Assembly (NCBI RefSeq): GCF_045679555.1
Contig: NC_092089.1
Coordinates: 7,236,506 to 7,300,505 of the forward strand
DNA length: 64,000 bases
From: Salvelinus alpinus
Lineage: Eukaryota > Chordata > Actinopteri > Salmoniformes > Salmonidae
Reading direction: 5' to 3'
Position 1 is the first letter of the stretch. Each line of letters begins with the position of its first letter. The translations under genes and the position numbers were made by a program. This document shows, piece by piece, positions 8,031 to 57,300 of this stretch. A model generated the notes under the pieces. That model ran no database searches, was not told the DNA's origin, and saw only the letters and a program-made list of their open reading frames with translations.

Positions 8031-11000
8031 CTGCCCAAACAACGACAGTCACACATCACTTCAGTATCCATGACAACACACACTTCTCCTGTCGTTCAGC
8101 TCTTCATTGATCTGATCAACTTGTAAAACTGTGAGGTGTTTATAGGCTGGACATATTCAGTGTTGCCGTGCGTTGCTATAGTTACCTGAGGCAGGTAGCG
8201 AAGGCTCGCCGTGTGTTGCGGTGCATTGCTATAGTTACCTGAGGCAGGTAGCGAAGGCTCGCCGTGTGTTGCGGTGCGTTGCTATAGTTACCTGAGGCAG
8301 GTAGCGAAGGCTCGCCGTGTGTTGCGGTGCATTGCTATAGTTACCTGAGGCAGGTAGCGAAGGCTCGCCGTGTGTTGCGGTGCATTGCTATAGTTACCTG
8401 AGGCAGGTAGCGAAGGCTCGACGTGTGTTGCGGTGCGTTGCTATAGTTACCTGAGGCAGGTAGCGAAGGCTCGACGTGTGTTGCGGTGCGTTGCTATAGT
8501 TACCTGAGGCAGGTAGCGAAGGCTCGCCGTGTGTTGCGGTGCATTGCTATAGTTACCTGAGGCAGGTAGCGAAGGCTCGACGTGTGTTGCGGTGCGTTGC
8601 TATAGTTACCTGAGGCAGGTTGCGAAGGCTCACCGTGTGTTGCGGTGCATTGCTATAGTTACCTGAGGCAGGTAGCGAAGGCTCGGCGTGCGTTGCGGTG
8701 CGTTGCTATAGTTACCTGAGGCAGGTAGCGAAGGCTCGGCGTGCGTTGCGGTGCAGGAAGTGGATAGGGAAACCTTTGAAGGTGTGTCCGTCCGGCACCG
8801 CCCTCCGCACAGCGTCCTGGAACTCCTCGTTACCGCAGGAAGTCCCCGTGCAGCGCTCCAGCTCGTACGCCGCCAGGGCGGAGGACAGGACGTAGGACAG
8901 GTGGTCATCCCACACTGTGGCCAGGCCCAGGTCCTGGAGGGACACACAGAGATCTACTATAATACAGGTCCTGGAGGAGACATAGAGATCTATTATAATA
9001 CAGGTCCTGGAGGAGACACAGAGATCTACTATAATACAGGTCCTGGAGGAGGGAGACACAGAGATCTACTATAATACAGGTCCTGGAGGAGACACAGAGA
9101 TCTACTATAATACAGGTCCTGGAAGAGACACAGAGATCTACAATAATACAGGTCCTGGAAGGAGACACAGAGATCTACTATAATACAGGTCCTGGAGGAG
9201 ACACAGAGATCTACTATAATACAGGTCCTGGAGGGAGACACAGAGATCTACTATAATACAGGTCCTGGAGGAGACACAGAGATCTACTATAATACAGGTC
9301 CTGGAAGAGACACAGAGATCTACTATAATACAGGTCCTGGAGGGAGACACAGAGATCTACTATAATACAGGTCCTGGAGGAGACACAGAGATCTACTATA
9401 ATACAGGTCCTGGAGGGACACAGAGATCTACTATAATACAGGTCCTGGAGGAGACACAGAGATCTACTATAATACAGGTCCTGGAAGAGACACAGAGATC
9501 TACTATAATACAGGTCCTGGAGGAGACACAGAGATCTACTATAATACAGGTCCTGGAGGAGACAAAGAGATCTACTATAATACAGGTCCTGGAGGAGACA
9601 CAGAGATCTACTATAATACAGGTCCTGGAGGAGACACAGAGATCTACTATAATACAGGTCCTGGAGGAGACACAGAGATCTACTATAATACAGGTCCTGG
9701 AGGAGACACAGAGATCTACTATAATACAGGTCCTGGAGGAGACACAGAGATCTACTATAATACAGGTCCTGGAGGAGACACAGAGATCTACTATAATACA
9801 GGTCCTGGAGGGAGACACAGAGATCTACTATAATACAGGTCCTGGAGGGAGACACAGAGATCTACTATAATACAGGTCCTGGAGGAGACACAGAGATCTA
9901 CTATAATACAGGTCCTGGAAGAGACACAGACATCTACTATAATACAGGTCCTGGAGGAGACACAGAGATCTACTATAATACAGGTCCTGGAGGAGACACA
10001 GAGATCTACTAAAATACAGGTCCTGGAGGAGACACAGAGATCTACTATAATACAGGTCCTGGAGGAGACACAGAGATCTACTATAATACAGGTCCTGGAG
10101 GAGACACAGAGATCTACTATAATACAGGTCCTGGAGGGACACACAGAGATCTACTATAATACAGGTCCTGGAGGGACACACAGAGATCTACTATAATACA
10201 GGTCCTGGAGGGACACACAGAGATCTACTATAATACAGGTCCTGGAGGAGACACAGAGATCTACTATAATACAGGTCCTGGAGGAGGGAGACACAGAGAT
10301 CTACTATAATACAGGTCCTGGAGGAGACACAGAGATCTACTATAATACAGGTCCTGGAGGAGACACAGAGATCTACTATAATACAGGTCCTGGAGGAGGG
10401 AGACACAGAGATCTACTATAATACAGGTCCTGGAGGAGGGAGACACAGAGATCTACTATAATACAGGTCCTGGAGGAGGGAGACACAGAGATCTACTGTA
10501 ATACAGGTCCTGGAGGAGACACAGAGATCTACTATAATACAGGTCCTGGAGGAGGGAGACACAGAGATCTACTATAATACAGGTCCTGGAGGAGACACAG
10601 AGATCTACTATAATACAGGTCCTGGAGGAGACACAGAGATCTACTATAATACAGGTCCTGGAGGAGACACAGAGATCTACTATAATACAGGTCCTGGAAG
10701 GACACAGAGATCTACAATAATACAGGTCCTGGAGGAGACACAGAGATCTACTATAATACAGGTCCTGGAGGAGACACAGAGATCTACTATAATACAGGTC
10801 CTGGAGGAGACACAGAGATCTACTATAATACAGGTCCTGGAGGAGACACAGAGATCTACTATAATACAGGTCCTGGAGGAGACACAGAGATCTACTATAA
10901 TACAGGTCCTGGAGGAGACACAGAGATCTACTATAATACAGGTCCTGGAAGGACACAGAGATCTACAATAATACAGGTCCTGGAGGAGACACAGAGATCT

Positions 11001-14000
11001 ACTATAATACAGGTCCTGGAGGAGACACAGAGATCTACTATAATACAGGTCCTGGAGGAGACACAGAGATCTACTATAATACAGGTCCTGGAGGAGACAC
11101 AGAGATCTACTATAATACAGGTCCTGGAGGAGACACAGAGATCTACTATAATACAGGTCCTGGAGGGACACAGAGATCTACTATAATACAGGTCCTGGAG
11201 GAGACACAGAGATCTACTATAATACAGGTCCTGGAAGAGACACAGAGATCTACTATAATACAGGTCCTGGAGGAGACACAGAGATCTACTATAATACAGG
11301 TCCTGGAGGAGACACAGAGATCTACTATAATACAGGTCCTGGAAGGACACAGAGATCTACAATAATACAGGTCCTGGAGGAGACACAGAGATCTACTATA
11401 ATACAGGTCCTGGAGGAGACACAGAGATCTACTATAATACAGGTCCTGGAGGAGACACAGAGATCTACTATAATACAGGTCCTGGAGGAGACACAGAGAT
11501 CTACTATAATACAGGTCCTGGAGGAGACACAGAGATCTACTATAATACAGGTCCTGGAGGAGACACAGAGATCTACTATAATACAGGTCCTGGAGGAGAC
11601 ACAGAGATCTACTATAATACAGGTCCTGGAGGAGACACAGAGATCTACTATAATACAGGTCCTGGAGGGACACAGAGATCTACTATAATACAGGTCCTGG
11701 AGGAGACACAGAGGTCTACTATAATACAGGTCCTGGAGGAGGGAGACACAGAGATCTACTATAATACAGGTCCTGGAGGAGGGAGACACAGAGATCTACT
11801 ATAATACAGGTCCTGGAGGAAGGAGACACAGAGATCTACTATAATACAGGTCCTGGAGGAGGGAGACACAGAGATCTACTATAATACAGGTCCTGGAGGA
11901 GACACAGAGATCTACTATAATACAGGTCCTGGAGGAGACACAGAGATCTACTATAATACAGGTCCTGGAGGTGGGAGACACAGAGATCTACTATAATACA
12001 GGTCCTGGAAGGAGACACAGAGATCTACTATAATACAGGTTCTGGAGGAGACACAGAGATTTACTATAATACAGGTCCTGGAGGAGACACAGAGATCTAC
12101 TATAATACAGGTCCTGGAAGGAGACACAGAGATCTACTATAATACAGGTCCTGGAGGAGACACAGAGATCTACTATAATACAGGTCCTGGAGGAGACACA
12201 GAGATCTACTATAATACAGGTCCTGGAAGGAGACACAGAGATCTACTATAATACAGGTCCTGGAGGAGACACAGAGATCTACTATAATACAGGTCCTGGA
12301 GGAGACACAGAGATCTACTATAATACAGGTCCTGGAGGAGACACAGAGATCTACTATAATACAGGTCCTGGAGGGAGACACAGAGATCTACTATAATACA
12401 GGTCCTGGAAGGAGACACAGAGATCTACTATAATACAGGTCCTGGAGGAGACACAGAGATCTACTATAATACAGGTCCTGGAGGAGACACAGAGATCTAC
12501 TATAATACAGGTCCTGGAAGGACACAGAGATCTACAATAATACAGGTCCTGGAGGAGACACAGAGATCTACTATAATACAGGTCCTGGAGGAGACACAGA
12601 GATCTACTATAATACAGGTCCTGGAGGAGACACAGAGATCTACTATAATACAGGTCCTGGAGGAGACACAGAGATCTACTATAATACAGGTCCTGGAGGA
12701 GACACAGAGATCTACTATAATACAGGTCCTGGAGGAGACACAGAGATCTACTATAATACAGGTCCTGGAGGAGACACAGAGATCTACTATAATACAGGTC
12801 CTGGAGGGAGACACAGAGATCTACTATAATACAGGTCCTGGAGGAGACACAGAGATCTACTATAATACAGGTCCTGGAGGAGACACAGAGATCTACTATA
12901 ATACAGGTCCTGGAGGAGACACAGAGATCTACTATAATACAGGTCCTGGAGGAGACACAGAGATCTACTATAATACAGGTCCTGGAAGGACACAGAGATC
13001 TACTATAATACAGGTCCTGGAGGAGACACAGAGATCTACTATAATACAGGTCCTGGAGGAGACACAGAGATCTATTATAATACAGGTCCTGGAGGAGACA
13101 CAGAGATCTACTATAATACAGGTCCTGGAGGAGACACAGAGATCTACTATAATACAGGTCCTGGAGGAGACACAGAGATCTACTATAATACAGGTCCTGG
13201 AGGAGACACAGAGATCTACTATAATACAGGTTCTGGAGGAGACACAGAGATCTACTATAATACAGGTCCTGGAAGGACACACAGAGATCTACTATAATAC
13301 AGGTCCTGGAGGAGACACAGAGATCTACTATAATACAGGACCTGGAGGAGACACAGAGATCTACTATAATACAGGTCCTGGAGGAGACATAGAGATCTAC
13401 TATAATACAGGTCCTGGAGGAGACACAGAGATCTACTATAATACAGGTCCTGGAGGAGACACAGAGATCTACTATAATACAGGTCCTGGAGGAGACACAG
13501 AGATCTACTATAATACAGGTCCTGGAGGAGACACAGAGATCTACTATAATACAGGTCCTGGAGGAGACACAGAGATCTACTATAATACAGGTCCTGGAGG
13601 AGACACAGAGATCTACTATAATACAGGTCCTGGAAGGACACAGAGATCTACAATAATACAGGTCCTGGAGGAGACACAGAGATCTACTATAATACAGGTC
13701 CTGGAGGAGACACAGAGATCTACTATAATACAGGTCCTGGAGGAGACACAGAGATCTACTATAATACAGGTCCTGGAGGAGACACAGAGATCTACTATAA
13801 TACAGGTCCTGGAGGAGACACAGAGATCTACTATAATACAGGTCCTGGAGGAGACACAGAGATCTACTATAATACAGGTCCTGGAGGAGACACAGAGATC
13901 TACTATAATACAGGTCCTGGAGGAGACACAGAGATCTACTATAATACAGGTCCTGGAGGAGACACAGAGATCTACTATAATACAGGTCCTGGAGGGAGAC

Positions 14001-17000
14001 ACAGAGATCTACTATAATACAGGTCCTGGAGGAGACACAGAGATCTACTATAATACAGGTCCTGGAGGAGACACAGAGATCTACTATAATACAGGTCCTG
14101 GAGGGAGACACAGAGATCTACTATAATACAGGTCCTGGAGGGAGACACAGAGATCTACTATAATACAGGTCCTGGAGGAGACACAGAGATCTACTATAAT
14201 ACAGGTCCTGGAGGAGACACAGAGATCTACTATAATACAGGTCCTGGAGGAGACACAGAGATCTACTATAATACAGGTCCTGGAGGAGACACAGAGATCT
14301 ACTATAATACAGGTCCTGGAAGGACACAGAGATCTACTATAATACAGGTCCTGGAGGAGACACAGAGATCTACTATAATACAGGTCCTGGAGGAGACACA
14401 GAGATCTACTATAATATCCTGTACTGTTAATATCCTGTACTCACACAGGGACCATGTTAATATCCTGTACTCACACAGGGACCATGTTAATATCCTGTAC
14501 TCACACAGAGACCATGTTAATATCCTGTACTCACACAGAGACCTTGTTAATATCCTGTACTGTAGATATACAACATGACTAGACACACAGAGACCATGTT
14601 AATATCCTGTACTGTAGATATACAACATGACTAGACACACAGGGACCATGTTAATATCCTGTACTGTAGATATACAACATGACTAGACACACAGGGACCA
14701 TGTTAATATCCTGTACTCACACAGGGACCATGTTAATATCCTGTACTGTAGATATACAACATGACTAGACACACAGGGACCATGTTAATATCCTGTACTG
14801 TAGATATACAACATGACTAGACACACAGGGACCATGTTAATATCCTGTACTCACACAGAGACCATGTTAATATCCTGTACTGTAGATATACAACATGACT
14901 AGACACACAGGGACCATGTTAATATCCTGTACTGTAGATATACAACATGACTAGACACACAGGGACCATGTTAATATCCTGTACTCACACAGAGACCATG
15001 TTAATATCCTGTACTGTAGATATACAACATGACTAGACACACAGGGACCATGTTAATATCCTGTACTCACACAGGGACCATGTTAATATCCTGTACTGTA
15101 GATATACAACATGACTAGACACACAGGGACCATGTTAATATCCTGTACTGTAGATATACAACATGACTAGACACACAGGAACCATGTTAATATCCTGTAC
15201 TGTAGATATACAACATGACTAGACACACAGGGACCATGTTAATATCCTGTACTGTAGATATACAACATGACTAGACACACAGGGACCATGTTAATATCCT
15301 GTACTGTAGATATACAACATGACTAGACACACAGGAACCATGTTAATATCATGTACTGTAGATATACAACATGACTAGACACACAGGGACCATGTTAATA
15401 TCCTGTACTCACACAGGGACCATGTTAATATCCTGTACTGTAGATATACAACATGACTAGACACACAGGGACCATGTTAATATCCTGTACTGTAGATATA
15501 CAACATGACTAGACACACAGGGACCATGTTAATATCCTGTACTGTAGATATACAACATGACTAGACACACAGGGACCATGTTAATATCATGTACTGTAGA
15601 TATACAACATGACTAGACACACAGGGACCATGTTAATATCCTGTACTCACACAGGGACCATGTTAATATCCTGTACTGTAGATATACAACATGACTAGAC
15701 ACACAGGGACCATGTTAATATCCTGTACTGTAGATATACAACATGACTAGACACACAGGGACCATGTTAATATCCTGTACTGTAGATATACAACATGACT
15801 AGACACACAGGGACCATGTTAATATCCTGTACTCACACAGGGACCATGTTAATATCCTGTACTGTAGATATACAACATGACTAGACACACAGGGACCATG
15901 TTAATATCCTGTACTCACACAGGGACCATGTTAATATCCTGTACTGTAGATATACAACATGACTAGACACACAGGGACCATGTTAATATCCTGTACTGTA
16001 GATATACAACATGACTAGACACACAGGGACCATGTTAATATCCTGTACTCACACAGGGACCATGTTAATATCCTGTACTGTAGATATACAACATGACTAG
16101 ACACACAGGGACCATGTTAATATCCTGTACTCACACAGAGACCATGTTAATATCCTGTACTGTAGAGACACAACATGACTAGACACACAGGGACCATGTA
16201 AATATCCTGTACTCACACAGGGACCATGTTAATATCCTGTACTCACACAGGGACCATGTTAATATCCTGTACTGTAGATATACAACATGACTAGACACAC
16301 AGGGACCATGTTAATATCCTGTACTCACACAGGGACCATGTTAATATCCTGTACTGTAGATATACAACATGACTAGACACACAGGGACCATGTTAATATC
16401 CTGTACTGTAGATATACAACATGACTAGACACACAGGGACCATGTTAATATCCTGTACTCACACAGGGACCATGTTAATATCCTGTACTGTAGATATACA
16501 ACATGACTAGACACACAGGGACCATGTTAATATCCTGTACTGTAGATATACAACATGACTAGACACACAGAGACCATGTTAATATCCTGTACTGTAGATA
16601 TACAACATGACTAGACACACAGGGACCATGTTAATATCCTGTACTGTAGATATACAACATGACTAGACACACAGGAACCATGTTAATATCCTGTACTCAC
16701 ACAGGGACCATGTTAATATCCTGTACTCACACAGAGGCCATGTTAATATCCTGTACTGTAGATATACAACATGACTAGACACACAGGGACCATGTTAATA
16801 TCCTGTACTCACACAGGGACCATGTTAATATCCTGTACTGTAGATATACAACATGACTAGACACACAGGGACCATGTTAATATCCTGTACTCACACAGAG
16901 ACCATGTTAATATCCTGTACTGTAGATATACAACATGACTAGACACACAGGGACCATGTTAATATCCTGTACTCACACAGGGACCATGTTAATATCCTGT

Positions 17001-20000
17001 ACTGTAGATATACAACATGACTAGACACACAGGGACCATGTTAATATCCTGTACTCACACAGAGACCATGTTAATATCCTGTACTGTAGATACACAACAT
17101 GACTAGACACACAGGGACCATGTTAATATCCTGTACTCACACAGGGACCATGTTAATATCCTGTACTGTAGATATACAACATGACTAGACACACAGGGAC
17201 CATGTTAATATCCTGTACTGTAGATATACAACATGACTAGACATACAGGGACCATGTTAATATCCTGTACTCACACAGGGACCATGTTAATATCCTGTAC
17301 TCACACAGAGGCCATGTTAATATCCTGTACTCACACAGAGGCCATGTTAATATCCTGTACTCACACAGGGACCATGTTAATATCCTGTACTCACACAGGG
17401 ACCATGTTAATATCCTGTACTCACACAGAGACCATGTTAATATCCTGTACTCACACAGGGACCATGTTAATATCCTGTACTCACACAGAGGCCATGTTAA
17501 TATCCTGTACTCACACAGAGGCCATGTTAATATCCTGTACTCACACAGGGACCATGTTAATATCCTGTACTCACACAGGGACCATGTTAATATCCTGTAC
17601 TCACACAGGGACCATGTTAATATCCTGTACTCACACAGAGGCCATGTTAATATCCTGTACTCACACAGGGACCATGTTAATATCCTGTACTCACACAGGG
17701 ACCATGTTAATATCCTGTACTGTAGAGACACAACATGGCTGACAGGTGTTACAGGTTAAACTGAGCCAACCCGTACGCTGTTTGTACTCTCACCTTCCTG
17801 TGTTCCACCACCAGGTACCTCAGCTCCAGTTCCAGCTGGTTGGAGGCAGCGCCGGGATCCAGGGAGGGGCCACAGAGAGGAGGTAGAGGGGGCAGAGAGG
17901 TGGTGCTGCCCGGGGAGCAGACTGAGTCAACAGCCTCCTCACTCATAGCCTTCCACTGGGACTGGTTGTGGAAGTCAAACACACAGAGTTCCACGGCGTC
18001 CGACGGCTGGCAGTTGGCCAGGAAGGCCCTGTGGTTGAACACACAGCCGATGGTCCTGTATGGATAGGAGGGGCGGGGCTGGGGGGCCAGGGGAGGGGCG
18101 TCTGGGTCAATGGCCTGGTGGAGGTACCTAAAAAAAAAAAAAAAAGTTGAACAGATAGAAATATATTGTGTAGAACAGACATGCCACTGACGTACAGACT
18201 AGAGTAAGGGATCATCACAGCTCTATACACAACATTGCTGCACCCTGGTGTTAGGATTGATGTTTATGCACTATAGCCTGCTACCATATTGTATGAATAT
18301 TGTTTTGTTACATCTGCATTGTCTGTCTGTGTGTGTGTGTATGTGTGAGCAACATAGAGTGACATGCTATAAAAGCTGTGGTCAATCTGGAGAGGGGAGG
18401 GGTGCATATCTCCAGGCCAACCAGGGAGGGTAGAACACTGGACAATACCATATAAGGAACTGTTTGAGTGTAGCATCTGGGGAGCGGAACAAGACAGATC
18501 TAATCTACCCAAAGACCAGATGCGGACACCTGCGAGCACCAAGGGACTGGGACCAGTCTGAGTGCCAGCGATAGGCTGAGCAAAGTTTAAACCACGCTCA
18601 GCCTCTACTGTGATAGGCCAACGGATGGCTGTCATAGTATATTAACTGTTGTTTGTGCACATTCCAGAGTTCCCTGTTCTACCCTGCGCGGTGATACAGC
18701 GAACCCGTATATACGAAAATTGCATTTGCCATTCATTACTTGCGTTAATTAAACATAATTAAAGAGAGTTAGCAGACCTTGCTTTTTATTTATCCTGATA
18801 GCGGATTCGATTAACGTACCACTTACCCTGGTGAAGGGGACTCAGTTAACCTATCGGAAACTCTCTGCCAGAGAGACAGAGCACAAACTGTTGCAGGTGT
18901 TTCTAAGCCCAGTTCACATCTAAAACACCTGATGTGTTGATGCAGTTGAAGAACAAAGTCTGTTTGATCTGAACACGTCTGGGTTTTAGGAACATCTCAT
19001 GTTGGCTGATGGAGATTCCAAAACGCAACATGTCAAATCTTAGCGGAAAACTCTCGACTCGCTTTAGCCAATCAGAGAATAGTGCGCTGACTTTCTGTGT
19101 TCAGCCAAGCAGACAGCGAGCTAGCTGTTTTGTTGCAGTAATAGCTAGCTGTTTTGCTGCAGTAATAGCTAGCTGTTTTGCTGCAGTAATAGCTAGCTGT
19201 TTTGCTGCAGTAATAGCTAGCTGTTTTGCTGCAGTAATAGCTAGCTGTTTTGCTGCAGTAATAGCTAGCTGTTTTGCTGCAGTAATAGCTAGCTGTTTTG
19301 TTGCAGTAATAGCTAGCTGTTTTGTTGCAGTAATAGCTAGCTGTTATGCTGCAGTAATAGCTAGCTGTTTTGCTGCAGTAATAACTAGCTGTTTTGTTGC
19401 AGTAATAACTAGCTGTTTTGCTGCAGTAATAACTAGCTGTTGTGCTGCAGTAATAACTAGCTGTTTTGCTGCAGTAATAACTAGCTGTTTTGCTGCAGTA
19501 ATAACTAGCTGTTTTGTTGCAGTAATAACTAGCTGTTTTGTTGCAGTAATAACTAGCTGTTTTGTTGCAGTAATAACTAGCTGTTTTGTTGCCGTAATAA
19601 CTAGCTGTTTTTCTGCAGTAATAACTAGCTGTTTTGTTGCAGTAATAACTAGCTGTTTTGTTGCAGTAATAACTAGCTGTTTTGTTGCAGTAATAACTAG
19701 CTGTTTTGCTGCAGTAATAACTAGCTGTTTTGTTGCCGTAATAACTAGCTGTTTTGTTGCCGTAATAACTAGCTGTTTTGTTGCAGTAATAACTAGCTGT
19801 TTTGTTGCAGTAATAACTAGCTGTTTTGCTGCAGTAATAACTAGCTGTTTTGTTGCCGTAATAACTAGCTGTTTTGTTGCCGTAATAACTAGCTGTTTTG
19901 TTGCAGTAATAACTAGCTGTTTTGTTGCAGTAATAACTAGCTGTTTTGCTGCAGTAATAACTAGCTGTTTTGTTGCAGTAATAACTAGCTGTTTTGCTGC

Positions 20001-23000
20001 AGTAATAACTAGCTGTTTTGTTGCCGTAATAACTAGCTGTTTTGTTGCCGTAATAACTAGCTGTTTTGTTGCAGTAATAACTAGCTGTTTTGTTGCAGTA
20101 ATAACTAGCTGTTTTGTTGCAGTAATAACTAGCTGTTTTGTTGCAGTAATAACTAGCTGTTTTGTTGCAGTAATAACTAGCTGTTTTGTTGCCGTAATAA
20201 CTAGCTGTTTTTCTGCAGTAATAACTAGCTGTTTTGTTGCAGTAATAACTAGCTGTTTTGTTGCAGTAATAACTAGCTGTTTTGTTGCAGTAATAACTAG
20301 CTGTTTTGTTGCAGTAATAACTAGCTGTTTTGCTGCAGTAATAACTAGCTGTTTTGTTGCCGTAATAACTAGCTGTTTTGTTGCCGTAATAACTAGCTGT
20401 TTTGTTGCAGTAATAACTAGCTGTTTTGTTGCAGTAATAACTAGCTGTTTTGTTGCAGTAATAGCTAGCTGTTTTGTTGCAGTAATAACTAGCTGTTTTG
20501 CTGCAGTAATAACTAGCTGTTTTGTTGCAGTAATAACTAGCTGTTTTGTTGCAGTAATAACTAGCTGTTTTGTTGCAGTAATAACTAGCTGTTTTGTTGC
20601 AGTAATAACTAGCTGTTTTGTTGCAGTAATAACTAGCTGTTTTGTTGCCGTAATAGCTAGCTGTTTTGTTGCAGTAATAACTAGCTGTTTTGTTGCAGTA
20701 ATAACTAGCTGTTTTGTTGCAGTAATAACTAGCTGTTTTGTTGCAGTAATAACTAGCTGTTTTGTTGCAGTAATAACTAGCTGTTTTGTTGCAGTAATAA
20801 CTAGCTGTTTTGTTGCAGTAATAGCTAGCTGTTTTGTTGCAGTAATAACTAGCTGTTGTGCTGCAGTAATAACTAGCTGTTTTGCTGCAGTAATAACTAG
20901 CTGTTTTTCTGCAGTAATAACTAGCTGTTTTGTTGCCGTAATAACTAGCTGTTTTGTTGCAGTAATAACTAGCTGTTTTGCTGCAGTAATAACTAGCTGT
21001 TTTGTTGCCGTAATAACTAGCTGTTTTGTTGCCGTAATAGCTAGCTGTTTTGTTGCAGTAATAGCTAGCTGTTTTGTTGCCGTAATAACTAGCTGTTTTG
21101 CTGCAGTAATAACTAGCTGTTTTGTTGCAGTAATAACTAGCTGTTTTGTTGCAGTAATAACTAGCTGTTTTGTTGCCGTAATAACTAGCTGTTTTGTTGC
21201 AGTAATAACTAGCTGTTTTGTTGCAGTAATAACTAGCTGTTTTGTTGCAGTAATAACTAGCTGTTTTGTTGCAGTAATAACTAGCTGTTTTGTTGCAGTA
21301 ATAACTAGCTGTTTTGTTGCAGTAATAGCTAGCTGTTTTGTTGCAGTAATAACTAGCTGTTTTGCTGCAGTAATAACTAGCTGTTTTGTTGCAGTAATAG
21401 CTAGCTGTTTTGTTGCAGTAATAACTAGCTGTTGTGCTGCAGTAATAACTAGCTGTTTTGCTGCAGTAATAACTAGCTGTTTTGCTGCAGTAATAACTAG
21501 CTGTTTTGTTGCAGTAATAACTAGCTGTTTTGTTGCCGTAATAACTAGCTGTTTTGTTGCAGTAATAACTAGCTGTTTTGCTGCAGTAATAGCTAGCTGT
21601 TTTGTTGCCGTAATAACTAGCTGTTTTGTTGCAGTAATAACTAGCTGTTTTGTTGCAGTAATAACTAGCTGTTTTGTTGCAGTAACAACTAGCTGTTTTG
21701 TTGCAGTAATAACTAGCTGTTTTGTTGCAGTAATAGCTAGCTGTTTTGTTGCAGTAATAACTAGCTGTTGTGCTGCAGTAATAACTAGCTGTTTTGCTGC
21801 AGTAATAACTAGCTGTTTTTCTGCAGTAATAACTAGCTGTTTTGTTGCCGTAATAACTAGCTGTTTTGTTGCAGTAATAACTAGCTGTTTTGCTGCAGTA
21901 ATAGCTAGCTGTTTTGCTGCAGTAATAACTAGCTGTTTTGCTGCAGTAATAACTAGCTGTTTTGTTGCCGTAATAACTAGCTGTTTTGTTGCAGTAATAG
22001 CTAGCTGTTTTGCTGCAGTAATAGCTAGCTGTTTTGCTGCAGTAATAGCTAGCTGTTTTGTTGCAGTAATAACTAGCTGTTTTGTTGCCGTAATAACTAG
22101 CTGTTTTGTTGCAGTAATAACTAGCTGTTTTGTTGCCGTAATAACTAGCTGTTTTGTTGCCGTAATAACTAGCTGTTTTGTTGCAGTAATAGCTAGCTGT
22201 TTTGCTGCAGTAATAGCTAGCTGTTTTGCTGCAGTAATAACTAGCTGTTTTGCTGCAGTAATAACTAGCTGTTTTGTTGCAGTAATAACTAGCTGTTTTG
22301 TTGCCGTAATAACTAGCTGTTTTGTTGCCGTAATAACTAGCTGTTTTGCTGCAGTAATAACTAGCTGTTTTGTTGCAGTAATAGCTAGCTGTTTTGCTGC
22401 AGTAATAACTAGCTGTTTTGCTGCAGTAATAACTAGCTGTTTTGTTGCCGTAATAACTAGCTGTTTTGTTGCAGTAATAGCTAGCTGTTTTGCTGCAGTA
22501 ATAGCTAGCTGTTTTGTTGCAGTAATAGCTAGCTGTTTTGTTGCAGTAATAACTAGCTGTTTTGTTGCAGTAATAACTAGCTGTTTTGTTGCAGTAATAA
22601 CTAGCTGTTTTGTTGCAGTAATAACTAGCTGTTTTGTTGCAGTAATAACTAGCTGTTTTGTTGCAGTAATAGCTAGCTGTTTTGTTGCAGTAATAACTAG
22701 CTGTTTTGTTGCAGTAATAACTAGCTGTTTTGTTGCCGTAATAACTAGCTGTTTTGTTGCAGTAATAACTAGCTGTTTTGTTGCAGTAATAACTAGCTGT
22801 TTTGTTGCCGTAATAACTAGCTGTTTTGTTGCCGTAATAACTAGCTGTTTTGCTGCAGTAATAACTAGCTGTTTTGCTGCAGTAATAACTAGCTGTTTTG
22901 CTGCAGTAATAGCTAGCTGTTTTGTTGCAGTAATAGCTAGCCTAGCTTGTTGATATTTCTCTGACCAGTTGCAAAGCGTGTAACTTTTCTGGTGAATGTA

Positions 23001-26000
23001 CTTCATGAAACTTGTTTGCTACAACACAGCAGTAAGCGCCTCAGACCGCTGGCCACTCGGACCGCTGGCCACTAGGGAGGCCCTGGGCTGGTCTTTTTGA
23101 TCTAAATGTCTCGTCTTCAATCAGCTACAACATTGTGAAACAGTCTGGTTCTGTCTCGTCTCACGTGGGCTGTTGTATCTGAACCAGGCTTCAGTCTCAC
23201 CTGTGTGCGGTCAGGCTCTCCCAGAAGGTGATGGTGCCGTCAGTGCCCCTGGTCATCACCCAGGTGTGTGCCAGGCCCTTGGGCTTAGTGCCAACACACA
23301 CGTAGGCATCCAGGCCGAAGCCCAGCAACAGACTGCACAGCAGGGTGGCATGGTCCTCACAGTCGCCCTGGAAACACACAACCAATCAGATCAGAGAGAT
23401 GTCACAATCGCCCTGGAAACACCAAAAACATCATGTCTCAGTTCCTAACTCTAACAGGGCTGGTCATCATGTCTCAGTTCCTAACTCTAACAGGGCTGGT
23501 CATCATGTCTCAGTTCCTAACTCTAACAGGGCTGGTCATCATGTCTCAGTTCCTAACTCTAACAGGGCTGGTCATCATGTCTCAGTTCCTAACTCTAACA
23601 GGGCTGGTCATCATGTCTCAGTTCCTAACTCTAACCTACAGGGCTGGTCATCATGTCTCAGTTCCTAACTCTAACAGGGCTGGTCATCATGTCTCAGTTC
23701 CTGACTCTAACAGGGCTGGTCATCATGTCTCAGTTCCTAACTCTAACCTACAGGGCTGGTCATCATGTCTCAGTTCCTAACTCTAACCTACAGGGCTGGT
23801 CATCATGTCTCAGTTCCTAACTCTAACAGGGCTGGTCATGATGTCTCAGTTCCTAACTCTAACAGGGCTGGTCATCATGTCTCAGTTCCTAACTCTAACA
23901 GGGCTGGTCATCATGTCTCAGTTCCTAACTCTAACAGGGCTGGTCATCATGTCTCAGTTCCTAACTCTAACAGGGCTGGTCATCATGTCTCAGTTCCTAA
24001 CTCTAACAGGACTGGTCATCATGTCTCAGTTCCTAACTCTAACCTACAGGGCTGGTCATCATGTCTCAGTTCCTAACTCTAACCTACAGGGCTGGTCATC
24101 ATGTCTCAGTTCCTAACTCTAACCTACAGGGCTGGTCATCATGTCTCAGTTCCTAACTCTAACAGGGCTGGTCATCATGTCTCAGTTCCTAACTCTAACA
24201 GGACTGGTCATCATGTCTCAGTTCCTAACTCTAACAGGGCTGGTCATCATGTCTCAGTTCCTAACTCTAACAGGGCTGGTCATCATGTCTCAGTTCCTAA
24301 CTCTAACAGGGCTGGTCATCATGTCTCAGTTCCTAACTCTAACCTACAGGACTGGTCATCATGTCTCAATTCCTAACTCTAACAGGGCTGGTCATCATGT
24401 CTCAGTTCCTAACTCTAACAGGGCTGGTCATCATGTCTCAGTTCCTAACTCTAACAGGGCTGGTCATCATGTCTCAGTTCCTAACTCTAACAGGACTGGT
24501 CATCATGTCTCAGTTCCTAACTCTAACAGGGCTGGTCATCATGTCTCAGTTCCTAACTCTAACAGGGCTGGTCATCATGTCTCAGTTCCTAACTCTAACA
24601 GGACTGGTCATCATGTCTCAGTTCCTAACTCTAACAGGGCTGGTCATCATGTCTCAGTTCCTAACTCTAACAGGGCTGGTCATCATGTCTCAGTTCCTAA
24701 CTCTAACAGGGCTGGTCATCATGTCTCAGTCCCTAACTCTAACAGGGCTGGTCATCATGTCTCAGTTCCTAACTCTAACAGGGCTGGTCATCATGTCTCA
24801 GTTCCTAACTCTAACAGGACTGGTCATCATGTCTCAGTTCCTAACTCTAACAGGACTGGTCATCATGTCTCAGTTCCTAACTCTAACAGGGCTGGTCATC
24901 ATGTCTCAGTTCCTAACTCTAACAGGGCTGGTCATCATGTCTCAGTTCCTAACTCTAACAGGACTGGTCATCATGTCTCAGTTCCTAACTCTAACAGGAC
25001 TGGTCATCATGTCTCAGTTCCTAACTCTAACAGGGCTGGTCATCATGTCTCAGTTCCTAACTCTAACAGGGCTGGTCATCATGTCTCAGTTCCTAACTCT
25101 AACAGGACTGGTCATCATGTCTCAGTTCCTAACTCTAACAGGACTGGTCATCATGTCTCAGTTCCTAACTCTAACAGGGCTGGTCATCATGTCTCAGTTC
25201 CTAACTCTAACCTACAGGGCTGGTCATCATGTCTCAGTTCCTAACTCTAACAGGGCTGGTCATCATGTCTCAGTTCCTAACTCTAACAGGGCTGGTCATC
25301 ATGTCTCAGTTCCTAACTCTAACAGGGCTGGTCATCATGTCTCAGTTCCTAACTCTAACAGGACTGGTCATCATGTCTCAGTTCCTAACTCTAACAGGAC
25401 TGGTCATCATGTCTCAGTTCCTAACTCTAACAGGGCTGGTCATCATGTCTCAGTTCCTAACTCTAACAGGGCTGGTCATCATGTCTCAGTTCCTAACTCT
25501 AACAGGGCTGGTCATCATGTCTCAGTTCCTAACTCTAACAGGACTGGTCATCATGTCTCAGTTCCTAACTCTAACAGGACTGGTCATCATGTCTCAGTTC
25601 CTAACTCTAACAGGACTGGTCATCATGTCTCAGTTCCTAACTCTAACAGGACTGGTCATCATGTCTCAGTTCCTAACTCTAACAGGGCTGGTCATCATGT
25701 CTCAGTTCCTAACTCTAACAGGGCTGGTCATCATGTCTCAGTTCCTAACTCTAACAGGGCTGGTCATCATGTCTCAGTTCCTAACTCTAACAGGGCTGGT
25801 CATCATGTCTCAGTTCCTAACTCTAACAGGGCTGGTCATCATGTCTCAGTTCCTAACTCTAACAGGACTGGTCATCATGTCTCAGTTCCTAACTCTAACA
25901 GGACTGGTCATCATGTCTCAGTTCCTAACTCTAACAGGGCTGGTCATCATGTCTCAGTTCCTAACTCTAACAGGGCTGGTCATCATGTCTCAGTTCCTAA

Positions 26001-43915: not shown

Positions 43916-43916
43916 A

Positions 43917-46530: not shown

Positions 46531-46532
46531 GA

Positions 46533-46978: not shown

Positions 46979-47080
46979 CAGACCAAACTCTGCCCGGTCC
47001 GGGCCCTGCTGACACAACGGAAGAACCGTTCAGACCAAACTCTGCCCGGTCCGGGCCCTGCTGACACAACGGAGGAACCG
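46979..47080. repeat. 51-bp direct duplication
   Basis: Two copies of 'cagaccaaactctgcccggt' with 'ccgggccctgctgacacaac', nearly identical. Confidence 0.88.
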
Positions 47081-47987: not shown

Positions 47988-48255
47988 AGAGGGAGGGGGT
48001 ATCACTGGGAGAAGAGCAAAAACCACCACTAGCCCCAAGGCCACGGCAGTTCAGACAGAGGGAGGGGGTATCACTGGGAGAAGAGCCAAACCACCACTAG
48101 CCCCAAGGCCACGGCAGTTCAGACAGAGGGAGGGGGTATCACTGGGAGAAGAGCCAAAACCACCACTAGCCCCAACGCCACGGCAGTTCAGACAGAGGGA
48201 GGGGGTATCACTGGGAGAAGAGCCAAACCACCACTAGCCCCAAGGCCACGGCAGC
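47988..48255. repeat. 67-bp array copying the PTPN2 C-terminal codons and stop, 4 copies
   Basis: On the minus strand each unit contains CTGCCGTGGCCTTGGGGCTA then GTGGTGGTTTGGCTCTTC and TCCCAGTGA, the last coding bases ([14 protein letters not shown]) and stop of PTPN2, plus about 25 bp of UTR. The first copy in sense direction is the real end; three more lie in the 3' UTR. Confidence 0.93.
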
Positions 48256-48397
48256 TCCAGCCCCCATGTTGAGCAGGATAGGCCTCCAGTACAGCCAGCG
48301 CTCTCTCTGCCTCTCTGTGTCCGTCAGTCTCTGTTTCATCAGGTGAAGCTTCTGGGTCGTGCTGGCGATACGCTCCTCCCTGCATCTCTTCCTCAGA
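48208..48397 (-). CDS. ptpn2: PTPN2 exon 9 (last), basic region and tail anchor
   Basis: Residues 536-598 and stop. The acceptor is TTCCAG|TCTGAGG. It encodes [20 protein letters not shown] then [20 protein letters not shown] and a hydrophobic C-terminus ending WLFSQ. The human long isoform has the same layout. Confidence 0.94.
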
Positions 48398-51300
48398 CTG
48401 GAATCAGATAATAACATGAGGGTTTCATTACATGGTTAGAGAGGTCTGGATGGGTCCTAATTGAAAGCCATCTAAACATGTCTGGAAGGGTCCTAATTGA
48501 AAGCCATCTAAACATGTCTGGAAGGGTCCTAATTGAAAGCCATCTAAACAGTCTGCCCGGCACTAAAGGCCCACAGCTTCAGCAGGAGGAGTTAAGCAGA
48601 CAGTAGAAAGAAGCAGGAGAGGGGAAGACACCTCGAGGTTTACTGACCATGGCACCTCCGCCAGGTCCTTCTCTGAGCTGTCTGGATCTGTCCTGTCTCC
48701 TGACGTCCGGTCCTCTCTGGACAACGCCACAGCCTCAGGCTCCACACAGGGCAGTGGCTGGCCGCGGGGCTTTTCTGAGGGACGACTGGGGGACGGGGGG
48801 GTGGGGGTGTCTAAAGGCCGTGGCGGGGGTAGAGTGGGGGCGTCTAAAGGCCGTGGCGGGGGTAGAGTGGGGGTGGGGGTGTCTAAAGGCCGTGGTGGGG
48901 GTAGAGTGGGGGCGTCTAAAGGCCGTGGCGGGGGTAGAGTGGGGGTGGGGGCGTCTAAAGGCCGTGGCGGGGGTAGAGTGGGGGTGGGGGCGTCTAAAGG
49001 CTGTGGCGGGGGTAGAGTGGGGGTGGGGGCGTCTAAAGGCCGTGGCGGGGGTAGAGTGGGGGCGTCTAAAGGCCGTGGTGGGGGTAGAGTGGGGGCGTGG
49101 GCGTCTAAAGGCCGTGGCGGGGGTAGAGTGGGGGTGTCTAAAGGCCGTGGTGGGGGTAGAGTGGGGGTGTCTAACGGCCGTGGTGGGGGTAGAGGGGGGG
49201 TGTCTAAAGGCTGTGGTGGGGGTAGAGTGGGGGTGTCTAAAGGCCGTGGTGGGGGTAGAGGGGGGGCGTGGGCGTCTAAAGGCCGTGGCGGGGGTAGAGT
49301 GGGGGTGTCTAAAGGCCGTGGTGGGGGTAGAGTGGGGGCGGGCGGTGATTCACACACTGTCGCTCTGTCCTCTCTGGACAGCTCGCTCCACTGGCTCTGT
49401 AGACAGACCAGTACTTAATGACCAACAGCTTCTAAGACAGGACAGTAGTTAATGACGAACAGCTCAGACAGACAGATAGAGCAGTCTCCCATGATGCTCT
49501 TGGATCCCTCTAGCTAGCTAGGTGTGTGGTTAGTGTTAGCTGTGTTACCTGTACAGAGCAGTCCCCCATGATGCTCTTGGCTCCCTCCAGCTAGCTAGGT
49601 GTGTGGTTAGTGTTAGCGGTGTTACCTGTGCAGAGCAGTCCCCCATGATGCTCTTGGCTCCCTCCAGCTAGCTAGGTGTGTGGTTAGGGTTAGCGGTGTT
49701 ACCTGTGCAGAGCAGTCACCCATGATGCTCTTGGCTCCCTCCAGCTAGCTAGGTGTGTGGCTAGTGTTAGCGGTGTTACCTGTACAGAGCAGTCCCCCAT
49801 GATGCTCTTGGCTCCCTCCAGGACAGCCCTGTAGGAGAAACGTAGCTGGTCAGGAGTCTGGATCAGACCCATCCGGTACTCCCTCATGTCCAGCAGAACC
49901 CTCTGGATGTCCACTGACGACGGGTCCTTCCTCTTGTCCATCTGGACGGGAGAGAGAGAGAGAATGACTTGACCTTCAACATCAGGGACAAGTGAAGACT
50001 GGCTGTTCTACATAATGCTGAACAGTGAATTTAGACTGGAGACATAGCCCATCTGTAAATAGCCCACCCAACTACCTCATCCCCATATTGTTATTTATTT
50101 TTTGCTCCTTTGCACCCCAGTATCTCTACTTGCACATTCATCTTCTGCACATCTATCACTCCAGTGTTAATTGCTAAATTGTAATTATTTCACCTTTATG
50201 GCCTATTTATTGCCTTACCTCCCTACTCTTACTACATTTGCACACACTGTATATAGACTTTTCTATTGTGTTATTTGACTGTACGTTTGTTTATGTGTAA
50301 CTCCGTGTTGTTGTTTGTGTCGCACTGCTTTGCTTTATCTTGGCCAGGTCGCAGTTGTAAATGAGAACTTGTTCTCAACTGGCCTACCTGGTTAAATAAA
50401 GGTGAAATAAAAATAAAATAAAATAAAATACAGTTTGACCAGGAGCTGATGTGAAACACCAAGTAGTGAAGCCTTGTCTGAGACAGAATCTCCTGTGTCT
50501 GTAGCGGGAACAAGCTGAATGTCCAAGTACAGCCCCTGAACAGGAGTAGGGCATTCAATTTCAATGTAAAAACAGGAAGTATTGATGTTACCAGGATGAG
50601 ACACGTGTCAACCAATGAGAAGGTCCCCGAGCGTCCAATCCCAGCGCTGCAGTGGACCACGGAGGGCCCGTGCTCCGTCCCCAATGAGCCAGACTCCCGC
50701 ACCTTGACCAGGAAGTTGAGGAAAGAGGCCGGGGATTCTGGGACGCCAAAGTCAGGCCAGGTGGTGTAGTGAAAGTGGTATATCTCTCTGGTTCCTCCTG
50801 TCTGGACAAAAGGCATGTGATTTTATTACAGTGACTGTGTTAACTTCCTCATGACACAGAGTCCGTGGAGAAGCAGAGCTCACCTCTGTGTTCCTCAGCT
50901 CCAACACTCGTATGATGTAGTAGGACTTGTCCTCTTCCTTCACGAGCGTCACAACGAACCCCGTGTCAGTGTAAGACAGCTGGTGTTCCTCAGCTGTAGG
51001 CCAGTACTGAGCACACTTCTCCTGTTGGGGGGGGGACAATACATCAGTCAGTCTGTCCCTCAGCTGTAGTACTGAGCACACTTCTCCTGTTGGGGGGGGA
51101 CAATACATCAGTCAGTCTGTCCCTCAGCTGTAGTACTGAGCACACTTCTCCTGTTGGGGGGGGACAATACATCAGTCAGTCTGTCCCCCAGTGGGACAAT
51201 ACATCAGTCAGTCTGTCCCTCAGCTGTAGTACTGAGGACACTTCTCCTGTTGGGGGGGGACAATACATCAGTCAGTCAGTCTGTCTCTCAGGGGGACAAT

Positions 51301-54300
51301 ACATCAGTCAGTCTGTCTCTCAGGGGGACAATACATTAGTGATTAGCCCAACCTGAACACCTGATGGGATGGCTAACTAGCTACTGCAGCTCCCTGGTCT
51401 ATCTGTGCATGATGATCACAGTACCCTGGACAGAGATACAATGAACCGCGGTGTGTTGGTCCACACTTGGTGTAGTGGCCTAGAGTGTGGTGGAAACCTA
51501 AAGCACAGGCTTGTCTGTCAGAGAGGGATGCCAACCCCTTCTCTAGGATTCTGTTCAGCATTATAACATGTACGCTACTTACAGATCCCTTCTCTAGGAT
51601 TCTGTTCAGCATTATAACATGTAGGCTACTTACAGACCCCTTCTCTACGATTCTGTTCAGCATTATAACATGTATGTAGGCTACTTACAGATCCCTTCTC
51701 TAGGATTCTGTTCAGCAGTATAACATGTAGGCTACTTACAGATCCCTTCTCTATGATTCTGTTCAGCATTATAACATGTAGGCTACTTACAGATCCCTTC
51801 TCTGGGATTCTGTTCAGCATTATAACATGTAGGCTACTTACAGATCCCTTCTCTAGGATTCTGTTCCGCATTATAACATGTAGGCTACTTACAGATCCCT
51901 TCTCTGGGATTCTGTTCTGCATTATAACATGTAGGCTACTTACAGATCCCTTCTCTAGGATTCTGTTCAGCATTATAACATGTAGGCTACTTACAGATCC
52001 CTTCTCTAGGATTCTGTTCAGCATTATAACATGTAGGCTACTTACAGATCCCTTCTCTAGGATTCTGTTCAGCATTATAACATGTAGGCTACTTACAGAT
52101 CCCTTCTCTAGGATTCTGTTCAGCATTATAACATGTATGTAGGCTACTTACAGATCCCTTCTCTATGATTCTGTTCAGCATTATAACATGTAGGCTACTT
52201 ACAGACCCCTTCTCTAGGATTCTGTTCAGCATTATAACATGTAGGCTTACAGATCCCTTCTCTAGGATTCTGTTCAGCATTATAACATGCAGGCTACTTA
52301 CAGATCCCTTCTCTAGGATTCTGTTCAGCATTATAACATGTAGGCTACTTACAGATCCCTTCTCTAGGATTCTGTTCTGCATTATAACATGTATGTAGGC
52401 TACTTACAGATTCCTTCTCTAGGATTCTGTTCTGCATTATAACATGTATGTAGGCTACTTACAGATTCCTTCTCTAGGATTCTGTTCAGCATTATAACAT
52501 TATGTAGGCTACTTACAATTTCCTTCTCTTGGATTCTGTTCCGCATTATAACATGTAGGCTTACAGATGCCTTCTCTAGGATTCTGTTCCGCATTATAAC
52601 ATGTAGGCTACTTACAGATCCCTTCTCTAGGATTCTGTTCAGCATTATAACATGTAGGCTACTTACAGATCCCTTCTCTAGGATTCTGTTCTGCATTATA
52701 ACATGTATGTAGGCTACTTACAGATCCCTTCTCTGGGATTCTGTTCAGCATTATAACATGTAGGCTACTTACAGATCCCTTCTCTAGGATTCTGTTCAGC
52801 AATATAACATGTAGGCTACTTACAGACCCCTTCTCTACGATTCTGTTCAGCATTATAACATGTATGTAGGCTACTTACAGATCCCTTCTCTAGGATTCTG
52901 TTCAGCATTATAACATGTAGGCTACTTACAGATCCCTTCTCTATGATTCTGTTCAGCATTATAACATGTAGGCTACTTACAGATCCCTTCTCTGGGATTC
53001 TGTTCAGCATTATAACATGTAGGCTACTTACAGATCCCTTCTCTAGGATTCTGTTCCGCATTATAACATGTAGGCTACTTACAGATCCCTTCTCTAGGAT
53101 TCTGTTCAGCATTATAACATGTAGGCTACTTACAGATCCCTTCTCTAGGATTCTGTTCAGCATTATAACATGTATGTAGGCTACTTACAGATCCCTTCTC
53201 TAGGATTCTGTTCAGCATTATAACATGTAGGCTACTTACAGATCCCTTCTCTAGGATTCTGTTCAGCATTATAACATGTAGGCTACTTACAGACCCCTTC
53301 TCTGGGATTCTGTTCAGCATTATAACATGTAGGCTACTTACAGACCCCTTCTCTAGGATTCTGTTCAGCATTATAACATGTATGTAGGCTACTTACAGAT
53401 CCCTTCTCTAGGATTCTGTTCAGCATTATAACATGTAGGCTACTTACAGACCCCTTCTCTAGGATTCTGTTCAGCATTATAACATGTAGGCTTACAGATC
53501 CCTTCTCTAGGATTCTGTTCAGCATTATAACATGTAGGCTACTTACAGATCCCTTCTCTAGGATTCTGTTCAGCATTATAACATGTAGGCTACTTACAGA
53601 TCCCTTCTCTAGGATTCTGTTCTGCATTATAACATGTATGTAGGCTACTTACAGATTCCTTCTCTAGGATTCTGTTCTGCATTATAACATGTATGTAGGC
53701 TACTTACAGATTCCTTCTCTAGGATTCTGTTCAGCATTATAACATTATGTAGGCTACTTACAATTTCCTTCTCTTGGATTCTGTTCCGCATTATAACATG
53801 TAGACTTACAGATGCCTTCTCTAGGATTCTGTTCCGCATTATAACATGTAGGCTACTTACAGATCCCTTCTCTAGGATTCTGTTCAGCATTATAACATGT
53901 AGGCTACTTACAGATCCCTTCTCTAGGATTCTGTTCTGCATTATAACATGTATGTAGGCTACTTACAGATCCCTTCTCTAGGATTCTGTTCCGCATTATA
54001 ACATGTATGTAGGCTACTTACAGATCCCTTCTCTAGGATTCTGTTCAGCATTATAACATGTAGGCTACTTACAGATCCCTTCTCTAGGATTCTGTTCAGC
54101 ATTATAACATGTAGGCTTACAGATGCCTTCTCTAGGATTCTGTTCCGCATTATAACATGTAGGCTACTTACAGATCCCTTCTCTAGGATTCTGTTCCGCA
54201 TTATAACATGTATGTAGGCTACTTACAGATCCCTTCTCTAGGATTCTGTTCAGCATTATAACATGTAGGCTACTTACAGATCCCTTCTCTAGGATTCTGT

Positions 54301-57300
54301 TCAGCATTATAACATGTATGTAGGCTACTTACAGATCCCTTCTCTAGGATTCTGTTCCGCATTATAACATGTATGTAGGCTACTTACAGATCCCTTCTCT
54401 AGGATTCTGTTCAGCATTATAACATGTAGGCTACTTACAGACCCCTTCTCTAGGATTCTGTTCAGCATTATAACATGTAGGCTTACAGATCCCTTCTCTA
54501 GGATTCTGTTCAGCATTATAACATGTATGTAGGCTACTTACAGATTCCTTTTCTAGGATTCTGTTCTGCATTATAACATTATGTAGGCTACTTACAGATC
54601 CCTTCTCTAGGATTCTGTTCAGCATTATAACATTATGTAGGCTACTTACAGATTCCTTCTCTAGGATTCTGTTCTGCATTATAACATTATGTTGGCTACT
54701 TACAGATCCCTTCTCTGGGATTCTGTTCAGCATTATAACATGTATGTAGGCTACTTACAGATCCCTTCTCTATGATTCTGTTCTGCATTATAACATGTAG
54801 TCTACTTACAGATCCCTTCTCTGGGATTCTGTTCAGCATTATAACATGTATGTAGGCTACTTACAGATCCCTTCTCTAGGATTCTGTTCCGCATTATAAC
54901 ATGTATGTAGGCTACTTACAGATTCCTTCTCTAGGATTCTGTTCCGCATTATAACATGTATGTAGGCTACTTACAGATTCCTTCTCTAGGATTCTGTTCC
55001 GCATTATAACATGTATGTAGGCTACTTACAGATTCCTTCTCTAGGATTCTGTTCCGCATTATAACATGTATGTAGACTACTTACAGATCCCTTCTCTACG
55101 ATTCTGTTCAGCATTATAACAGCTTTGGAGTTCTGCTCCCAGACCATCAACCAGAAGTGGCCGCAGGTGTTCTTCAGGGGGCCCTTTGGGAGAAAACACA
55201 ACACTGCCTCATCACCAACTGAAACACAGACCAACCCTCAAAATGTAGATCCACAAGTCTTAGTACATGTTTAGTGAAAACCTCATTTCAGTGATCAGTA
55301 CATAATGAATGGAAACGTCTGAGCTACTTGTATGTACTGACCTGAGACAGAATATAGGATCTTTGGGCTTCCTCCACCATGACTAAACTAATTGTATGTA
55401 CTGACCTGAGACAGAATATAGGATCTTTGAGCTTCCTCAAGCCATGACTAAACTACTTGTATGTACTGACCTGAGACAGAATATAGGATTTTTGGGCTTC
55501 GTCCACCATGACTAAACTACTTGTATGTACTCACCTGAGACAGAATATAGGATCTTTGGGCTTCCTCCGCCATGACTAAACTACTTGTATGTACTGACCT
55601 GAGACAGAATATAGGATCTTTGAGCTTCCTCCACCATGACTAAACTACTTGTATGTACTGACCTGAGACAGAATATAGGATCTTTGGGCTTCCTCCACCA
55701 TGACTAAACTACTTGTATGTACTGACCTGAGACAGAATATAGGATCTTTGAGCTTCCTCCACCATGACTAAACTACTTGTATGTACTGACCTGAGACAAA
55801 ATATAGGATCTTTGAGCTTCCTCCACCATGACTAAACTACTTGTATGTACTGACCTGAGACAGAATATAGGATCTTTGAGCTTCCTCCACAATGACTAAA
55901 CTTGCATTGATGTAGTCATTTTCAGATTTTTCAAGTTTAACGCGACTGTGATCATCTGAAACCAGAGACAAAAGATATTTAAAATGTGTAAATTAAAACT
56001 ATTGTGAATCGTCAAGGTGTAAACATTCATCACATTGATGACTAGTGTAGGGTACTTCATGAATGATAGTTGAACAGACAAAAATACTTACAGGGGCTGA
56101 CATCTCTATATCGGTTTCGATTCTGATTCTCTGGAAGTTTTGCCATCTTATATGAATAGTCGCTGGCTTGGTTTCGGATTTCCTGAGAAAGAACGAGAAC
56201 AAATACCAGCCAGTGACTGAATTTGATTGTCATTGATCAGGTCAGCTTGCTTCTGGGTAAACCTCTACTATAACTGTCTATAACATATATCCTGTCCCTA
56301 GACACTCTACTATAACCCTGTCTATAACATATATCCTGTCCCTAGACCCTCTACTATAACCCTGTCTATAACATATATCCTGTCCCTAGACCCTCTACTA
56401 TAACCCTGTCTATAACATATATCCTGTCCCCAGACCCTCTACTATAACCCTGTCTATAACATATATCCTGTCCCCAGACCATCTACTATAACCCTGTCTA
56501 TAACATATATCCTGTCCCCAGACCCTCTACTATAACTGTCTACAACCATATATCCTGTCCCTAGCCCAGACCCTCTACTATAACCCTGTCTATAACATAT
56601 ATCCTGTCCCTAGCCTAGACCCTCTACTATAACTGTCTACAACCATATATCCTGTCCCTAGCCCAGACCCTCTACTATAACCCTGTCTATAACCATATAT
56701 CCTGTCCCTAGCCTAGACACTCTACTATAACCCTGTCAATAACATATATCCTGTCCCTAGCCTAGACCATCTACTATAACATATATCCTGTCCCTAGCCC
56801 ATCTACTATATCTGTCTATAACCCTGTGTCCTATCCCTAGCCTAGAACCTCTATAACCCTGCTACTATAATACTAAAAGTAATATAATTGGCCTCAACAG
56901 GCCCAACACTGGATTTGACTACATTGTAATGGAATGCAGGCATTCGGATTATAGTCCTCATAATGAAACCAGCTACTGGGACACCGTTGTAATCAACTCA
57001 CATCCATGACTCTTCACATGTACATATCCATTTCACATGTTTGAAAATTAAATGTTGCCATTATTGATCAGAACATCAGAAATCAGCGATTCAGAAAGAT
57101 TTCGGGCTACATTCTAACAATTATGTGAATAATTCAACATATTTATATATATCTGGCTCATGTGGTTGTTAATTCTACATCACTATGAACATTTATGGGC
57201 ATAGTACAATTATATTTCATGCAGGTCCTGTGAAATTGTCCAATAAGACTCCATAGAGTTGTTGGGGCGGCCATATTGGGAAAAGGCTTCTGTGGGGTTA

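Follow-up and report, generated by a model that had tools for sequence, protein, structure and literature searches.

Introduction

Minisatellite-like duplications of intron-exon boundaries have been described in amphioxus under the name 'mirages': they are reported in Adh3, the globins BflGb6 and BflGb9, troponin C and PGBD5, where both boundaries are described as affected and regular splicing as undisturbed, and the same accounts include a model of intron gain, differences in length between haplotypes and, for Adh3, somatic instability (PMC3087553, PMC3902484). Human precedents are also on record: the minisatellite of IFI6 (6-16) is reported to give multiple splice donors (Turri 1995, as cited in PMC4526556 and PMC2572611), and tandem repeats at exon-intron boundaries within human segmental duplications are described as accompanying alternative transcripts and new introns (PMC2812944). 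Here we analyse a stretch of 64,000 nucleotides from the salmonid Salvelinus alpinus (the window; GCF_045679555.1, NC_092089.1, positions 7,236,506 to 7,300,505), in which minisatellites span exon-intron junctions of two neighbouring genes, CEP76 and PTPN2. An initial annotation of the window had described this as a regional pattern, which is borne out and proves wider than stated: it is seen again in two further genes, SEH1L and CEP192.

Across the four genes, 18 of 98 junctions lie inside an array whose unit holds the exon end and the adjoining intron with its splice site (8 of 38 in the two window genes). Donor and acceptor boundaries are both duplicated (10 and 8, respectively), and many copies, albeit not all, keep the AG/GT signals: the 18 arrays comprise 517 aligned copies, including the 18 exon-contiguous ones, with the dinucleotide kept in 492 and the whole splice core in 275. 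The amphioxus mirages, as described, are alike in that the tandem unit spans an exon boundary with its splice site. They were reported gene by gene, with 6 and 3 units in two BflGb6 haplotypes, whereas in this fish genome a single repeat-dense region contains 18 cases, spread over four adjacent genes, with up to 151 copies. The IFI6 minisatellite is likewise reported to have a unit that carries a splice donor, and the repeats in human segmental duplications are likewise minisatellites at exon-intron boundaries; the former differs in the reported use of two downstream units, giving three messenger RNAs (PMC4526556), and the latter in their described link to new introns and alternative transcripts in recent paralogues. 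Moreover, the amphioxus cases are backed in the cited reports by reverse transcription polymerase chain reaction and by length variation, whereas the fish arrays are known from the sequence of one assembly.

No fish case was found among the precedents in a literature survey that covered titles and the opening lines of abstracts in lists of limited length, which does not imply absence. The boundary-spanning structure itself is already published as the amphioxus mirages, and in view of these and of IFI6 the initial annotation, which knew of no description of the pattern, overstated its novelty: the remaining interest lies in the density of such arrays in a vertebrate region. This provides a vertebrate setting for the amphioxus proposal that such repeats can yield new introns, and shows how far minisatellites invade genes while exons stay readable. 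The region is also a natural test of splice-site choice, including whether position alone decides: within the four genes, 18 exon ends stand beside further copies of their splice sites, from 1 to 150 apiece, and in many of these copies the core is identical.

Results and Discussion

Arrays spanning exon-intron junctions

CEP76 and PTPN2 were rebuilt on the minus strand as genes of 12 and 9 exons. The joined exons of CEP76 make 1992 nucleotides (663 amino acids and a stop) and those of PTPN2 1797 nucleotides (598 amino acids and a stop), each in a single open frame, and all 19 introns are of the GT-AG type, giving the 38 internal junctions counted in the initial annotation. The CEP76 product scores above the Pfam cut-offs for four models (CEP76_N, CEP76-C2, the CEP76 peptidase-like domain and CEP76_C), whilst the first 305 residues of the PTPN2 product match Y_phosphatase and PTPN2 chains are the best solved-structure (PDB) matches of one PTPN2 exon. 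A second CEP76 copy was not found in a protein search of the genome, in which the best candidates were scored and the 11 matches listed all lie inside the window.

Tandem Repeats Finder (TRF) returned 99 rows for the window, which were merged by hand to 49 arrays occupying 42,063 of the 64,000 bases; nested and alternative-period rows were dropped in merging, as were short two-copy rows at 23040, 44010, 46369 and 59366. Eight of the 38 junctions lie inside arrays, each with a unit that carries the exon end and splice site, and they are exactly the eight that had been named beforehand (Table 1). Their exonic portions range from 6 to 48 bp, and the weakest of these cases is the CEP76 exon 11 acceptor, which lies at the lower end of this range. 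In its array, 4 of 151 copies match the authentic acceptor core. In the PTPN2 exon 4 donor array, the first copy of which is 55 bp long, GT is kept in all 68 copies and an identical nine-base donor core is found in 60. The initial annotation had further emphasised that the arrays run on into the intron while the exon-contiguous copy remains intact: this is true, but is the automatic result of tandem-duplicating any segment that crosses a junction and is hence not a separate finding.

Near misses were scored as non-spanning (the CEP76 exon 8 acceptor at 9 bp, the SEH1L exon 5 acceptor at 13 bp and cases in CEP192 at 8-9 bp), as were partial copies at CEP192 exon C4:7331699 and at CEP76 exon 9, where the single partial duplicate noted earlier was found again. 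CEP76 exon 8 is flanked on both sides: an array at 27626-28148 (-) stops 9 bp before the acceptor and a TG-rich repeat at 27247-27405 (-) begins 22 bp past the donor, with neither site crossed.

The analysis was extended to a neighbourhood of 264 kb, consisting of the window (C4:7236506-7300505) and 100 kb on each side, with the flanks taken as 20 stretches whose arrays were merged by script; for ten arrays the period was assigned manually. For SEH1L, 8 exons were found and 3 of 14 junctions are spanned (exon 5 donor, exon 7 acceptor and exon 7 donor). For CEP192, recognised by four open frames beyond the window that match Cep192 domains 3, 3, 4 and 5, 24 exons were found and 7 of 46 junctions are spanned. 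Across the 18 arrays, conservation of the splice core exceeds that of the remaining unit in 13, falls below it in 4 and equals it in 1. Since the copies share ancestry and mismatches are inflated at alignment ends, we do not take this as a sign of selection on inner splice sites.

Table 1. Positions of junction-spanning arrays, other arrays and coding regions. Plain numbers are window positions; the prefix L marks numbered stretches outside the window.
Feature	Position	Strand	Details
77-bp array across CEP76 exon 4 donor	32658..34344	-	34 exonic bp; GT kept in 22/22 copies
67-bp array across CEP76 exon 6 acceptor	28899..29929	-	26 exonic bp; AG kept in 15/15 copies
36-bp array across CEP76 exon 11 acceptor	8928..14416	-	151 copies; reaches 6 bp past acceptor; AG kept in 151/151
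53-bp array across CEP76 exon 11 donor	8160..8754	-	39 exonic bp; GT kept in 11/11 copies
64-bp array across PTPN2 exon 3 donor	55324..55902	-	48 exonic bp; GT kept in 9/9 copies
51-bp (TRF) array across PTPN2 exon 4 donor	51536..55121	-	37 exonic bp; 68 copies
64-bp array across PTPN2 exon 5 acceptor	51003..51340	-	19 exonic bp (TRF); AG in 4/4 aligned copies
77-bp array across PTPN2 exon 7 donor	49478..49821	-	42 exonic bp; GT in 4/4 aligned copies
SEH1L junction arrays	L009:4738-7050, L009:7576-8425, L009:8528-8811		outside window
CEP192 junction arrays 1-4	L014:1297-2174, L014:8396 to L015:1059, L015:5581-5760, L016:5134-6250		
CEP192 junction arrays 5-7	L016:6345-7735, L017:5662-6945, L018:3777-4091		
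Lone partial copy of CEP76 exon 9 acceptor	23398..23423 (approximate)	-	45 bp upstream of real acceptor
Coding array inside PTPN2 exon 8	48797..49340	-	14 delimited units of 33 or 39 bp; frame open
CEP192 coding-exon arrays	L014:4756-5022 (51 bp), L014:5370-5429 (30 bp), L014:5435-5516 (39 bp)		frames open
68-bp array across PTPN2 stop codon	47988..48254	-	stop-to-stop spacings 69, 68, 69
CEP76 coding region, 12 exons	7892..38261	-	single open frame; GT-AG introns; Pfam matches
PTPN2 coding region, 9 exons	48208..58928	-	single open frame; Y_phosphatase; PDB matches
SEH1L start	63282..64000, continuing beyond window	+	best PDB matches of exon 4 are SEH1

Repeat density, intron length and a proposed origin of the arrays

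Tandem repeats make up 72% of the 264 kb around and including the window, with a repeat fraction per 10 kb of flank from 0.21 to 1.00 (the minimum in a stretch where N makes up half of the letters). The comparison value, 5.6% in 38.8 kb from 13 short myosin-exon stretches elsewhere, comes from a small, non-random sample and concerns density only. Within the genes, arrays account for 23,092 of the 28,378 bases of CEP76 intron and for 5,910 of the 8,924 of PTPN2 intron. Once arrays are removed, introns are short: the array-free length is 80-200 bp in 12 of the 19 CEP76 and PTPN2 introns, with medians of 157 bp for CEP76, 139 bp for PTPN2, 206 bp for SEH1L and 375 bp for CEP192. In introns this short, long units, such as those of 50 to 77 bp, will frequently cross an exon edge. 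As a separate observation, three 10-kb stretches upstream of the window (L021, L022 and L028) are entirely tandem repeat, covered by one TRF row in L022 and L028 and by two in L021.

The explanation that we favour, and regard as probable, is that saturation with repeats and short introns, combined with purging of arrays that come between an exon and its splice signals, would leave spanning arrays in modest surplus. In a region saturated with minisatellites, and in genes whose introns would mostly have been short before the arrays grew, segments of about 35-110 bp would be duplicated in tandem at many sites. A duplication across an exon end would, by its tandem form, preserve a single complete exon and splice site while the extra copies fall in the intron; while the spliceosome uses the outermost, exon-contiguous site, such an array would act as intron, could be nearly neutral and might grow likewise. 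Duplications that separate the exon from nearby intronic splice signals would tend to be lost, units that carry the whole site would escape this purging and hence come to be in modest surplus, and wholly exonic duplications would persist only if the reading frame is kept. The regional growth of repeats may perhaps stem from raised recombination toward salmonid chromosome ends, given that recombination and break hot spots in salmonids are reported to increase in that direction (PMC11703093).

Comparison with chance and with promotion at junctions

According to the initial annotation, arrays placed at random would seldom fall on junctions with this frequency. This proved too strong in a region of 72% repeat with short introns, where the nulls expect 9-13 of the 18 spanning arrays. 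For CEP76 and PTPN2 we seeded 26 intron arrays at random (21-25 with period cut-offs), each collapsed to one unit, and varied the model (two), the threshold for overlap (two) and the period cut-off (four). The expectation lies between 3.3 and 6.1 spanning arrays as compared to the 8 observed, with P(>=8) between 0.011 and 0.22. These two genes alone thus show at most a modest excess.

The rival that survives best holds that junction sequence itself promotes tandem duplication, so that seeding across exon ends runs at about 1.5 to 2.3 times the rate in flanking intron, with the AG/GT core as microhomology or events linked to transcription or splicing as possible routes. Were this true, boundary-spanning minisatellites would result not from chance but as a side effect of transcription or of sequence related to splicing. 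Several results weigh in its direction and against our preferred explanation. Seeding per intron across the four genes gives 12.7 expected versus 18 observed (P 0.049), a figure that falls to 10.3 (P 0.0046) when an overlap of at least 6 bp is required; a null based on coverage, in which units cover 9.4% of the collapsed intron, gives about 9.2 expected versus 18 of 98 (P 0.0044). All three nulls therefore point the same way, as do the genes outside the original pair: SEH1L and CEP192 alone have 10 spanning arrays versus 6.6 (P 0.09) or 5.2 (P 0.019) expected. Taken over all nulls, the excess is 1.3- to 2.4-fold, with P from 0.22 to 0.004. The CEP192 exons were identified by visual inspection of open frames and splice signals, some of them via array edges, and the spanned fraction of this gene may be biased upward. 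The per-intron and coverage nulls treat transposon copies and unfound CEP192 exons as empty intron, which makes their expectation too low. The P values are uncorrected for the many variants tried, the region was picked for its striking look and the junction counts cover four neighbouring genes in one assembly.

A second comparison sets the rate of array edges lying in exon ends against the rate of array edges lying within the intron. For all arrays this rate is flat, which argues against promotion: the exon side has 18 of 98 junctions, every one within 50 bp, and successive 50-bp bins of intron from 0-49 bp onwards have 11/80, 11/69, 7/54, 7/37, 5/24 and 1/19, so that the exon side differs neither from the first bin (Fisher P 0.42) nor from intron at 0-199 bp (36/240, P 0.51). 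However, part of this flatness comes from short units, as the 73 intron arrays reach a mean of 74% of 50 bp. A test with long units leaves a difference of 1.7- to 2.3-fold. That test was restricted to units with a minimum length of 30, 40 or 51 bp and treated other arrays as blocking intron: the exon side has 18/98 versus 26/240 in intron for units of at least 30 bp (ratio 1.70, P 0.075), 15/98 versus 19/240 for at least 40 bp (ratio 1.93, P 0.047) and 12/98 versus 13/240 for at least 51 bp (ratio 2.26, P 0.039). Such an excess, which again tells against our explanation, is what promotion at junctions would also give.

The distribution of the longest units within the intron nevertheless tempers this point. 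For units of at least 51 bp the four intron bins have 1/80, 4/69, 4/54 and 4/37, and the exon-side rate (12/98) is about equalled at 150-199 bp: the difference is a dip beside the exon. Scarcity of long units next to the exon fits purging as well as attraction. Furthermore, the position of the junction within the unit is unclustered and does not differ from uniform (Kolmogorov-Smirnov P 0.17, 18 arrays). On our reading, density and short introns explain over half of the spanning arrays and the remainder is a modest surplus. This surplus can be explained by purging of arrays beside exons; promotion at junctions could explain it too, although we consider this rather unlikely.

Reading frame, tolerance and use of the inner copies

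Arrays wholly inside exons are depleted: only 4 are found versus 23.3 expected at the intron rate in the 10.9 kb of annotated coding exon of the four genes. Three of them belong to CEP192 and the fourth to PTPN2 exon 8. Each of the 4 has a period divisible by 3, as compared to 52 of 145 arrays overall (period at least 9), and the units in PTPN2 exon 8 encode 11 or 13 proline-rich residues each. Exon ends show no such depletion. Tolerance of junction-spanning duplications, one of the two explanations offered in the initial annotation, is therefore supported, whilst promotion, the other, is left as the less likely rival discussed above: the observation itself is confirmed and its interpretation as a whole partly supported.

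The junction units lack any corresponding bias towards multiples of three, with remainders 0/1/2 in 4/10/4 of the 18 by the first copy and in 6/8/4 by the TRF period, and in only 2 of 18 cases would the exon stay in frame and free of stops if extended by its first inner unit. Regular use of inner sites would hence damage most of these products. A comparable arrangement is seen at the PTPN2 stop codon, where the protein ends in the first copy of an array and the other copies lie beyond the stop: this is the same logic at another boundary type. Taken together, these results suggest that coding constraint does not act on copies past the stop or past the outermost splice site, and from sequence we infer that the outermost site is probably the one used.

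These frame data bear on the idea that inner copies serve as alternative splice sites, yielding protein or regulatory variants, and that the arrays are kept by selection. The retention of splice signals given above (counts that include the authentic copies) could be read in its favour, as could the downstream donors reported for IFI6 and the 66% of human new-intron-causing repeats that are described as also showing a repeat-retaining transcript (PMC2812944). With units that so rarely preserve the frame, however, we judge this idea improbable. Production of the arrays or of their copy numbers by misassembly is more improbable still: long arrays are difficult to assemble and, of the 20 flank stretches, three contain 100 N and one 5000 N, but the window is free of N, the copies of its eight spanning arrays differ from each other (92-98% matches) and the exon-contiguous copy joins unique exon sequence in all eight, even if copy numbers may still be wrong.

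Other features

Two further observations were made towards the end of the window. Intron 2 of SEH1L seems to begin with GC rather than GT (AG|GCAAGT at 63804-63809, +). A reverse-transcriptase fragment of a retroelement (RVT_1) lies at 60696-61148 (+), with a 44-bp array nearby at 61680-62435.

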